Positions 15,218-38,108 of a stretch of 38,108 nt of DNA are shown here, piece after piece. The notes below the pieces were generated by a model. That model was not told where the DNA came from. It was given only the letters and a program-made list of their open reading frames with translations, and did no database searches. A program made the position numbers and the translations under genes. Positions within the stretch are counted from its first letter, which is position 1; each line of letters begins with the position of its first letter. Where the stretch lies: the NCBI GenBank assembly GCA_018064405.1, contig JAGHVG010000016.1:1-38108 (forward strand). Direction: 5' to 3'. This DNA is from Candidatus Enterousia scatequi. Lineage in GTDB: Bacteria; Pseudomonadota; Alphaproteobacteria; Rs-D84.

Positions 15218-16462
15218 ATGAACAAACAAATATCATTATTCATTGTAATATTAATGACGATACCTGCTTTGGCATACGGTGACATTGCATCCACCGGATA
15301 TGTTGATAGTATTGCCAACACAAAACAAGACGTGTTACCGATGGCAGCCCGTCCAACCAATGGTACCTATAACGTTGTTTGGGATAGTAACAGTGGTCAG
15401 TTTATATTTGAACCAGGCATGCAATGTGGTTCGGGTTGTTATGTCAATGGAGATAATGTTTGTATGTATTGTGATAAAGCATCATTTAATACAACCCAAA
15501 CAGAAAGTGTAACCAACGGCACACGTTCGCGCACTAACGCATGTACATCTGTGGATGTTGGTGCAACAACGTGTTCATGTTCCAATCGCAGTTATGGTAA
15601 TTGGACATATAATTGTAATAGCGGCTATAGTGGATCATCATCATGTTCATGCACGACCCCATGCACATCTGTTGCGAATCGTACCGACACAACCAGTGGG
15701 ACGGAAACATGCACAATAAGAAACGGCACAGGCAAACGTTCATACACGAATACATGCAGTAGTAATTACACCAGCAGTGGTTGTTCATCTGCTGGTGCAT
15801 CGTGCAGTGGGTGCAGTGCGTATAACACGCGTTCATCGACGGGTACATGTTATGTTCAAACATGTAACACTGGATATTATGGCACAGCGAATTCGTCAAC
15901 ATCATGTAGCGTATGCACGAATAAGCCATTGCATTCATTCTATACTGGATCATCGACAAGCAACAACTGTCCATGGACATGCGATAGTGGCTATACTCAA
16001 GAGGGCAGCGAATGCGGTGGTCTGAGTTGTCCATCTGGCCAATACGACATCGGATTTAGTCAGTGCATAGATCCCGCCACGAATGAGACAGGTTATGGAT
16101 ACATCAACGACAGTGTTCATACTTGGATAGGTCCAGATAGTTCCAATGAGTCCGTATACGGTCTAACGCAAGACAACACCTGGGGTGTGACATTATATAC
16201 AGGTGATAAAATAAAGGGAGAGACATTATGCAGCAGCATGGAAGGGATAGATGGCAAACCTGGTAATCCTGATGAAGCATTTGATGAGGATACTAGTCAG
16301 TATTGCTGGTGCAGGATGACGTTTCCGGCTGTGTCGCGTTGGGTGTTCCTCTACGACGACGGCTTTGCGGGCAATTGCGCGAACAATTGTGCGGGCTACT
16401 GCGGTTACAACATCCAGTTCAATTCCGCTTTCCGTTCGGGCATGTTCGGTTCGGTTGAGTAA
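15218..16462 (+). CDS. Secreted cysteine-rich protein with a C-terminal variable domain
   Basis: This 414-residue protein has a signal peptide (to about residue 21) and a DIASTGYVD module (about 22-68). A long Cys/Ser/Thr/Gly-rich region (about 69-265) is made of short repeats such as CNTGYYGTANSSTSCSVC. The C-terminal domain (about 270-414) begins SCPSGQYDIGFSQC and contains YGLTQDNTWGVTL and CWCRMTFPAVSRWVF. It ends with a cysteine-patterned stretch (CANNCAGYC) and FRSGMFGSVE. The same domain occurs twice in the protein at 31389. The last 40 or so codons use almost no A in the third position, unlike the rest of the gene. It is probably surface exposed. CAGGAG inside the upstream gene serves as ribosome-binding site. 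Confidence 0.8.
   Translation: MNKQISLFIVILMTIPALAYGDIASTGYVDSIANTKQDVLPMAARPTNGTYNVVWDSNSGQFIFEPGMQCGSGCYVNGDNVCMYCDKASFNTTQTESVTNGTRSRTNACTSVDVGATTCSCSNRSYGNWTYNCNSGYSGSSSCSCTTPCTSVANRTDTTSGTETCTIRNGTGKRSYTNTCSSNYTSSGCSSAGASCSGCSAYNTRSSTGTCYVQTCNTGYYGTANSSTSCSVCTNKPLHSFYTGSSTSNNCPWTCDSGYTQEGSECGGLSCPSGQYDIGFSQCIDPATNETGYGYINDSVHTWIGPDSSNESVYGLTQDNTWGVTLYTGDKIKGETLCSSMEGIDGKPGNPDEAFDEDTSQYCWCRMTFPAVSRWVFLYDDGFAGNCANNCAGYCGYNIQFNSAFRSGMFGSVE
16304..16462 (+). other. Variable module V1
   Basis: The 3' end of the 15218 gene, from CWCRM to the stop. Aligned by codon with V2 (31875-32033) and V3 (32343-32510), fixed Cys, Trp, Phe and SGMF positions alternate with changed ones; most changes are in the first two codon positions. 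The 20-base block ATTGTGCGGGCTACTGCGGT (16386-16405) is identical in V3, although the bases on either side differ. Confidence 0.6.
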
Positions 16463-31388: not shown

Positions 31389-32510
31389 ATGCGCAAACAC
31401 ATATTCACACTAGGAATAATACTAACCATAATACCGGCATATGGATACAGATCAAGGGATGCAAATAATATCTGGACCGATCCAGAACGTACAACGCTTG
31501 CCAAAGAAATATGCGATAGTGATACCCAGGGTTGTCCATCTGCATCATGTTGGTTACCTGGTGGAATATATTATGATAATAAGGGAACATTTACCGAAAC
31601 ATGTACTGGTGGTTGTTCATCTGGTCGATACAACATTGGATTCAGCAGTTGTGTTGATGTAAAAACGAATGGCACAGGTAGGGGCTATATAACCAGAGGA
31701 AGAGAATACACTGCTGACACCGGTACCTATGGTCTAACGGAGGACCAGACATGGGGCGTGACATTTAGTGGTTATGGTCAAGTAAAAGGTATATCAGCAT
31801 GTACTAGCACATCTGGTACATTGGGTGTAGCCACTGATACAGAATTTAGTAACACAACACTAACTGGAGGCAATTGTTGGTGTAAAATGACAAGTCCGGC
31901 TACTTCGCGTTGGGTGTTCTACGCCGCCGACAGCGGTTCGGGCTCTTGTGGTCGCTGGTGTGCGTACCACTGCGCTGACGTAGTCCAGAACAATGTCATA
32001 GTCCGGTCGGGCATGTTCAGGTTATTTGGGTCAGAGTCGTCTTTTGACCAAACTTATGCGCGCAAATTAAGGGATTGTTCGAGATTTAGTTGTCCACCTG
32101 GTCAATACGACTTAGGATTCAGCAGTTGCATTGAAAATGTGTGGGGAAGTGGCTGGGGCGGTTGGAATTTTAATGGGGGCAAATCCTCCGCCACCACCTA
32201 TGGCTTAACTGCAGCTGGTCAATGGGGTACAACATTAGATGGTGGTAATAACATAACAGGCATAGCATCATGTAATGATACACCTGGTACACAAGGTGTA
32301 CTCGCCGATACAGAATTTAGTAACACAGTAAGTGGAGAATATTGTTGGTGTAAGATGACAAGTCCAGCTGCTTCGAGTTGGGCGTACCTCTACGACTACA
32401 CCACCAATAGTTCTTCCACGTGCGCTGAAGATTGTGCGGGCTACTGCGGTAGGTACAGCCAGAGCACCTCGAGTTTTCGGTCGGCCATGTTCTGGTCGGT
32501 GGGGAATTGA
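31389..32510 (+). CDS. Secreted protein with two copies of a cysteine-rich variable domain
   Basis: The 373-residue protein has a signal peptide (MRKHIFTLGIILTIIPAYG) and a short linker. Two tandem domains of about 140 residues follow, starting at CSSGRYNIGFSSC (about 76) and CPPGQYDLGFSSC (about 235). Each has YGLT...WG(V/T)T, a central DTEFSNT, then CWCKMTSPA, and a variable segment ending R-S-x-M-F. The DNA before each variable segment is nearly identical between the two domains, pointing to a recent duplication, while the variable segments differ strongly. The domain also forms the C-terminus of the protein at 15218. The AAGGGGG ribosome-binding site is shared with the gene at 1-90. Surface or secreted binding protein is my inference; no known family recognised. 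Confidence 0.8.
   Translation: MRKHIFTLGIILTIIPAYGYRSRDANNIWTDPERTTLAKEICDSDTQGCPSASCWLPGGIYYDNKGTFTETCTGGCSSGRYNIGFSSCVDVKTNGTGRGYITRGREYTADTGTYGLTEDQTWGVTFSGYGQVKGISACTSTSGTLGVATDTEFSNTTLTGGNCWCKMTSPATSRWVFYAADSGSGSCGRWCAYHCADVVQNNVIVRSGMFRLFGSESSFDQTYARKLRDCSRFSCPPGQYDLGFSSCIENVWGSGWGGWNFNGGKSSATTYGLTAAGQWGTTLDGGNNITGIASCNDTPGTQGVLADTEFSNTVSGEYCWCKMTSPAASSWAYLYDYTTNSSSTCAEDCAGYCGRYSQSTSSFRSAMFWSVGN
31875..32033 (+). other. Variable module V2 (internal)
   Basis: From CWCKM to FGS in the first domain of the 31389 gene. Shares TCGCGTTGGGTGTTC and CGGGCATGTTC with V1 at its edges but differs in the middle. The third codon position is mostly C, G or T. Confidence 0.6.
32343..32510 (+). other. 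Variable module V3 (3' end)
   Basis: From CWCKM to the stop in the second domain of the 31389 gene. It shares a 20-base block with V1 (32431-32450) and is two codons longer than V1 and V2 before the first inner Cys. Confidence 0.6.
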
Positions 32511-37743: not shown

Positions 37744-38108
37744 TGAGAACGTGTAAATATTTTGCATTGTGTGTTTGTGCTTTTTGTTATGGAAACGCAT
37801 TTGGACTTGATGTTTCTGAAATAGCAAATCCAAATGCATGGGTGCAGAAAACACGCCAAGAAACTTACACTGTTGGTGCAGATGGGAAATCATTGTTTCA
37901 TGGAAATACGAATACGGGTATGACTTTAAAATCTACAGGGGAAGTTGGGAGTCAAATAAAGGTGGTTGATAAAAATATACCGGCAAGGGTTAGAACAACA
38001 CCAAGTCCAACGCCAAGTCCAACACCGACACCAAGTCCAACGCCAAGTCCAACACCGACACCAAGTCCAACACCGACACCAAGTCCAACGCCAACACCGA
38101 CACCAAGT
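37743..38108 (+). CDS. Secreted protein with a Pro/Thr/Ser repeat region, 3' truncated by the window
   Basis: The frame is open from the ATG at 37743 to the end of the window (122 codons). The N-terminus MRTCKYFALCVCAFCYGNAFG is a signal peptide with unusual cysteine content. A soluble stretch follows, then from about residue 87 an uninterrupted run of PTPSPT-type repeats. Such Pro/Thr linkers are extended and often glycosylated, usually joining domains outside the cell. The domain after the linker is not visible. The ATG overlaps the previous stop. Confidence 0.8.
   Translation, partial: MRTCKYFALCVCAFCYGNAFGLDVSEIANPNAWVQKTRQETYTVGADGKSLFHGNTNTGMTLKSTGEVGSQIKVVDKNIPARVRTTPSPTPSPTPTPSPTPSPTPTPSPTPTPSPTPTPTPS
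38001..38108 (+). repeat. In-frame PTPSPT-encoding tandem repeat
   Basis: Short tandem units of 6, 12 and 18 bp (CCAAGTCCAACG, CCAAGTCCAACACCGACA) run to the window edge. They would be prone to slippage in multiples of three, changing linker length without breaking the frame. Confidence 0.9.

Follow-up and report, generated by a model that had tools for sequence, protein, structure and literature searches.

Probable variable repeats of a diversity-generating retroelement in a secreted cysteine-rich protein of Candidatus Enterousia scatequi

A secreted cysteine-rich protein of Candidatus Enterousia scatequi contains two segments, V1 and V2, that are very probably variable repeats (VRs) of a chromosomal diversity-generating retroelement (DGR) acting through the mechanism proposed below; we place the probability of this reading at about 0.88. 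Its gene lies in the window, which is the whole 38,108-nucleotide stretch analysed and corresponds to contig C4 of a genome of 756,070 bases in 38 contigs (79% complete). The relatives of the reverse transcriptase (RT) described below place the host with Candidatus Enterousia and related Alphaproteobacteria from the guts of ruminants and horses, and reduced genomes are known for gut Alphaproteobacteria of this type (PMC12306168).

Results

Variable segments in the genes of the window

The preliminary description of this DNA had proposed that the gene at 31389 encodes two tandem domains, each with a fast-changing segment at its end. Our analysis found the same arrangement, with two homologous cysteine-rich domains that each close on a variable segment, fixed Cys, Trp and R-S-x-M-F positions, and a length difference of two codons (6 nt) (Table 1). 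The end of V1 is the end of its domain, and the end of V2 is the stop codon. The variable segment 31919-32023 is identical to its partner at 64 of 104 positions (62%). The preceding DNA had been called almost identical, which proved too strong: 31836-31900 matches its partner at 55 of 62 positions (89%) and 31836-31912 at 65 of 74 (88%). The duplication had also been taken as fresh, but it must be old because the remainder of the duplicated domain is only 66% identical (138/210).

Starts of 36 nt like that of gene 31389 were found at several paralogous genes of the same genome. Elsewhere in the window, a short repeat of Thr/Pro/Ser type (ACACCAAGTCCAACG...) occupies positions 37900-38108 and runs off the contig end.

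Table 1. Features of the window discussed in the text
Feature	Position	Strand	Remarks
Target gene	31389..32510	+	373 aa; secreted; two tandem Cys-rich domains, each closed by a putative DGR variable repeat
Signal-peptide-like N-terminus	31389..31448	+	MRKHIFTLGIILTIIPAYGY; translation inspected by eye
V1, variable repeat	31896..32022	+	collinear with TR2 (contig C17), gap-free
V2, variable repeat	32364..32498	+	same template family as V1; 6-nt insertion
Second target domain of gene 31389	32061..32507	+	used for AlphaFold2
Second target gene	15218..16462	+	414 aa; secreted-type, Cys-rich; same C-terminal domain
Third variable repeat of the window	16325..16453	+	in gene 15218-16462

A reverse transcriptase cassette on another contig

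The suspicion of a DGR raised in the preliminary description was borne out by the presence of an RT, a template and adenine-concentrated differences, both in this genome and in sister species. Profile searches of this assembly detected one RT (RVT_1, E 8e-15), which lies outside the window on contig C8. The cassette there consists of a VRa gene, orf108, the RT gene, a template (TR1), a structured RNA and a VRb gene. The best match of the RT among solved structures was 8ub7-8ube (E 1.5e-46), entries titled only "Reverse transcriptase"; we take 8ub7 to be the DGR reverse transcriptase of Bordetella phage BPP-1. The RT also matches the reverse transcriptase family PHROG 1423 (E 1.1e-93). In an alignment of 11 species it has the motifs PIGNLTSQW and YCDD, and two relatives have PIGNFCSQW or PIGNYCSQW in place of the former. 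DGR reverse transcriptases are recognised by IGNLTSQ in place of QGxxxSP, and the enzyme carries this motif, which together with the matches above indicates that it belongs to the DGR clade.

TR1 lies about 40 bases after the RT gene, and VRb lies 700 bases further on, in the next secreted-type gene. The two differ at 17 of 134 positions, 16 of which are adenines in TR1 (Fisher p = 1.1e-11). These adenines changed to G in eight cases, to T in five and to C in three, and the non-A sites of TR1 and VRb agree at 103 of 104. The 3' end of the pair is GC-rich with one mismatch, and may represent an IMH-like boundary.

The structured RNA lies 3' of TR1 (L015:10362-10529) and has a closing stem and a hairpin, with compensatory changes across 23 loci. 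Such an element is a conserved feature after the templates of this clade. A covariance model, built from sequences that include TR1's own element, matched beside TR1 at E 8.5e-22, and the next match in the genome had E 3.9. The model also matched seven further RT loci at E under 1e-12, and Rfam gave no match at the RT locus. By analogy with BPP-1, this RNA may serve to recruit and prime the RT.

The adjoining orf108 is a conserved ORF of 108 amino acids (L009:919-1245), with homologues beside the RT in L160-L235 and matches at 60-odd of the best 80 GTDB RT loci. The orf108 of a relative gave a confident model of a small alpha/beta protein (pLDDT 91.6), and its fold matches were weak, several of them OB-fold proteins (best E 0.03). 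We found no match in this genome at E<=1 to PF05635, presumably the Pfam family of Avd, an accessory protein that many but not all DGRs have; orf108 is present instead, and possibly replaces Avd.

A second template-like sequence

Near the end of contig C17 lies TR2, a second, orphan, AAC-rich template-like sequence. Its 5' flank resembles those directly preceding genuine templates at L184 and L178, as well as a stretch upstream of the RT in L188. Contigs C17 and C13 (L016, L032) begin at the same base with a near-identical flank, and their starting sequence directly follows the stop codon of a VR gene on C3 and C29. Judged from these junctions, the order is probably VR gene, spacer and template as in sister species, and the hypervariable repeat would be where the assembly broke. 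In the same flank, C13 carries TR2 in mutated form, as if rewriting had also affected a template copy.

At its 3' end TR2 passes into a fragment of a VR gene. The RNA element is absent at TR2, and the covariance model gave one strong match over the whole genome, the one beside TR1. Given the missing RNA element, the fusion with part of a VR gene and a position close to the end of the contig, TR2 could be a relic, a recombinant or a chimera produced in assembly, derived from an intact template that is missing from the contigs. The same species was also sought in viral contigs by exact flank, which returned none, with one relative at 44%.

Fifteen dispersed repeats compared with TR2

Fifteen repeats across the genome, including V1, V2 and 16325-16453, align with TR2, 11 of them free of internal gaps. 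An A mismatch was neutral in the alignment scoring, so that A mismatches were slightly favoured, and the gap-free alignments leave little room for such an effect. In total, 296 of 480 template adenines were changed versus 190 of 1332 non-A positions (odds ratio 9.7), with p = 1e-83, which is only nominal because p-values here assume independent sites and repeats, and the repeats are related. The rate of change by TR2 base was 0.62 for A, 0.13 for C, 0.15 for G and 0.15 for T. Changed adenines gave T (113), G (112) and C (71). All 296 A-site changes fall in codon positions 1 and 2, in a TR2 stretch that has no A at position 3.

The pattern was also seen in individual repeats. V1 differs from TR2 at 21 of 32 adenines and at 13-14 of 90-95 other sites (Fisher p = 1.3e-7 for 13/90), and V2 at 18 of 32 adenines and 18-19 of 90-97 other sites (p = 2.3e-4 for 18/90). 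For 16325-16453, the corresponding values were 16 of 32 and 6-7 of 90-97 (p = 4e-7 for 6/90), and the repeat on C36 was the weak case among the fifteen (p = 0.04). The third repeat of the window, which the preliminary description had missed, fits TR2 better than V1 or V2 do. A template with A at the variable positions, which the preliminary description had proposed to look for, is present beside the RT as TR1, and the template-like TR2 matches V1 and V2. These results point strongly to mutagenic homing from a TR2-type template as the origin of V1, V2 and 16325-16453.

The preliminary description had also remarked on third-position differences and held that one fixed template would not explain everything. 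Both points stand: codon position 3 holds 118 of the 190 non-A changes, and 139 of the 190 are common to at least two VRs. These shared differences point to related lineages of templates or of genes. V1 and V2 have 13-18 non-A differences from TR2, whereas fresh pairs of the clade have 0-1, so the TR2 copy at hand was not their immediate source. A reconstructed AAC version, used as an ideal template for V2 in a search of the 79%-complete assembly, found nothing better than TR2, and that assembly yielded no exact or intact current template for either repeat.

TR1 was considered as a template for both repeats and rejected. Against TR1, V1 is changed at 18 of 29 adenines and 21 of 80 other sites, and V2 at 17 of 30 and 23 of 82, with gaps.

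The same architecture in related genomes

Protein searches found the RT in the genome of the window and in 14 of 58 related genomes. It was also present at at least 80 GTDB loci, and the most distant matches listed came from other phyla. When 40 loci of related RTs in other species were scanned for segments differing at A, 31 had a TR/VR pair near the RT. Within 80 bp the pairs show 8-18 mismatches at A and, in most cases, 0 at other bases; nearly all differ at A only. As a control, the scan was repeated with C, G or T in the role of A on 24 of these loci, chosen because A had passed; 0, 3 and 3 loci passed, with low scores.

Remote targets were also found. Two in G028, on other contigs than the RT, are changed at 12 of 25 A sites versus 3 of 91 others (p = 2e-7) and at 16 of 25 versus 6 of 96 (p = 3e-9). 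A target in G013 that lies 48 kb from the RT is changed at 16 of 26 A and 4 of 70 non-A sites (p = 2e-8). In G006, the target is changed at 15 of 23 A sites versus 1 of 108, and it lies at a contig end that could adjoin the RT contig. The closest parallel to gene 31389 is an ORF of 683 aa in G013, on the contig of L181, which contains two VRs with 0 non-A changes each.

Copies of the target domain also occur in genomes where no RT was detected (24 in G001, 21 in G027 and 11 in G015), indicating no fixed link between the domain and an active DGR. Beside the VR domains examined in genomes with no detected RT, no convincing template was found in G018, G019, G027, G002 or G001. The DGR of L089 (G010) is another one, whose template (NENSNVRCADNNGDKNWYNPKNRK) is unrelated; it shows 13 mismatches at A and 1 elsewhere. 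In L088 (G023) the RT is split into two pieces that lie in different frames, which may reflect gene breakage or an error in the sequence.

Predicted scaffold of the target domain

The second target domain of gene 31389 was modelled with AlphaFold2 from 26 sequences, with a mean pLDDT of 74.5 and block means of 81-93 over residues 51-149. The model has strands at residues 54-58, 64-72, 94-101 and 108-112, followed by helices at 118-135 and 137-145. Foldseek returned no match to a solved structure at E<=0.001, the best having E 2.0 and TM scores reaching 0.31 at most, and no match for the target domain among viral models, and a profile search of PDB chains gave no lectin match for it. A standard lectin should have been found, because C-type-lectin variable proteins are present in the PDB. 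Going by the model, the target domain does not look C-type-lectin-like.

The invariant columns of the target domain include six cysteines and one tryptophan. The templates spell C-x-N-N-C-x-N-N-C-x-N-N-V-x-N-N, a four-residue repeat that matches the predicted helix, and the variable residues may face the solvent, opposite the cysteines. Neither the target domain nor orf108 received a name from Pfam, PHROGs or NCBIfam; a resemblance to the META domain in these searches was below threshold (E 0.005) and serves as a lead only. We give about even odds to the fuller description: a small secreted non-lectin domain whose six invariant Cys are shared between a four-strand sheet and a C-terminal helix, with variable residues every four positions along that helix, used in a single genome of less than 1 Mb as more than 15 dispersed hypervariable binders, with a new small accessory protein substituting for Avd.

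Discussion

In the mechanism that we propose, an error-prone RT would copy a template RNA with paired AAC codons into cDNA, misincorporating opposite adenine, and this cDNA would replace the homologous 3' segment of the target gene. The variable residues would thereby be rewritten, and Cys, Trp and the R-S/G-x-(M/V)-F end would stay unchanged. At least 15 dispersed repeats, V1, V2 and 16325-16453 among them, would derive from a template of the TR2 type, distinct from TR1. Such templates would be copied, now or formerly, in trans by the RT of C8 or by a sister RT that has been lost or was not assembled. V1 and V2 would since have drifted, or would use a template slightly unlike the TR2 copy at hand. 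They are probably still active, and their products are likely to be surface or secreted binders.

A variant of this explanation, compatible with what it says about origin, treats V1 and V2 as former targets. The TR2 system would once have been active and would have lost its RNA element, leaving the repeats to drift under ordinary selection, with TR1/VRb as the only active pair. The fresh state of TR1/VRb (16 A differences, 1 other) compared with the 13-18 non-A differences of V1 and V2 is consistent with this, as are the absence at TR2 of the RNA element, which was found once in the genome, and the presence in the genus of genomes with many domain copies and no detected RT (G001, G027, G015). 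However, with 79% completeness and the edges of C17 and C13 following a VR-gene-like stop, an intact second cassette may be missing from the assembly, and the 16325-16453, C28 and C16 repeats have only 6 non-A differences. We therefore consider loss of activity possible, though rather less probable than its opposite.

Gene conversion from silent cassettes had been named as the alternative in the preliminary description; we also considered conversion among paralogues, in either case with no reverse transcription. Many paralogous repeats do exist, and the 139 of 190 shared non-A differences imply that recombination or common descent contributes to the pattern. Conversion gives no reason, however, for a change of 62% at A versus 13-15% elsewhere with three product bases, and it leaves the A-only pairs beside RTs in about 30 species unexplained, which makes it very improbable as the source of V1 and V2. 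If a gene had duplicated and ordinary positive selection then acted on an exposed surface used for binding, mostly non-synonymous changes with Cys and Trp preserved would also be seen. Selection does not, however, act on the adenines of a non-coding template copy, and TR1 lies outside the target gene and matches VRb at 103 of 104 non-A sites; we consider this reading very improbable.

Read as a DGR, the system resembles that of Bordetella phage BPP-1 (brt, avd, TR and the VR of mtd) in its RT family as judged by the solved-structure search, in the A-specific difference between TR and VR, in a binding-type protein with its VR at the 3' end, and in a structured RNA 3' of TR, which corresponds to the BPP-1 spacer (PMC12875486). 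It differs from BPP-1 in that no Avd-type protein was found and a 108-aa gene is present instead, in its many dispersed targets, and in a domain model that is not lectin-like. With the DGRs of Thiohalocapsa PB-PSB1 (PMC10907252) it shares several targets, multiple VRs per protein and candidate remote targets in trans. Thiohalocapsa PB-PSB1 has nine DGR loci, whereas here one detected RT accompanies at least 15 repeats that belong to one small secreted domain family, in a genome of less than 1 Mb.

Surveys of DGRs have shown that one TR can serve multiple VRs and that one ORF can hold several of them (PMC3521204, PMC6642488). The present system differs in a target family that lacks a Pfam match and in repeats spread over many contigs at a distance from the RT. 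Since multi-target systems, several VRs per protein and action in trans have already been described (PMC3521204, PMC6642488, PMC10907252), we regard the present system as a DGR. Its target would be of the binding type, as in tentaclins and C-type-lectin variable proteins (PMC10743442; PMC8144416). Those proteins carry the VR on a C-type-lectin domain (on a beta-hairpin in tentaclins), whereas in the present model the VR falls on a strand, a loop and a C-terminal helix, and the cysteines are conserved. In a large survey, the annotated variable regions of DGRs were systematically reported as C-type-lectin folds, and uncharacterised domains were left open (PMC8144416). Relative to the open-access literature searched, the non-lectin target, as modelled, the large dispersed repertoire in a genome of less than 1 Mb and the accessory set appear to be new.

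If this is correct, a second scaffold, a Cys-rich helix, would tolerate massive targeted variation, which would widen the view of which proteins a DGR can diversify and would offer a compact natural library scaffold. The RT, the 108-aa gene and the structured RNA form a defined set that bears on whether Avd is replaceable. A gut lineage with a reduced genome would also keep a diversification machine with many targets, whose binding partners could be the host surface, other microbes or phages.
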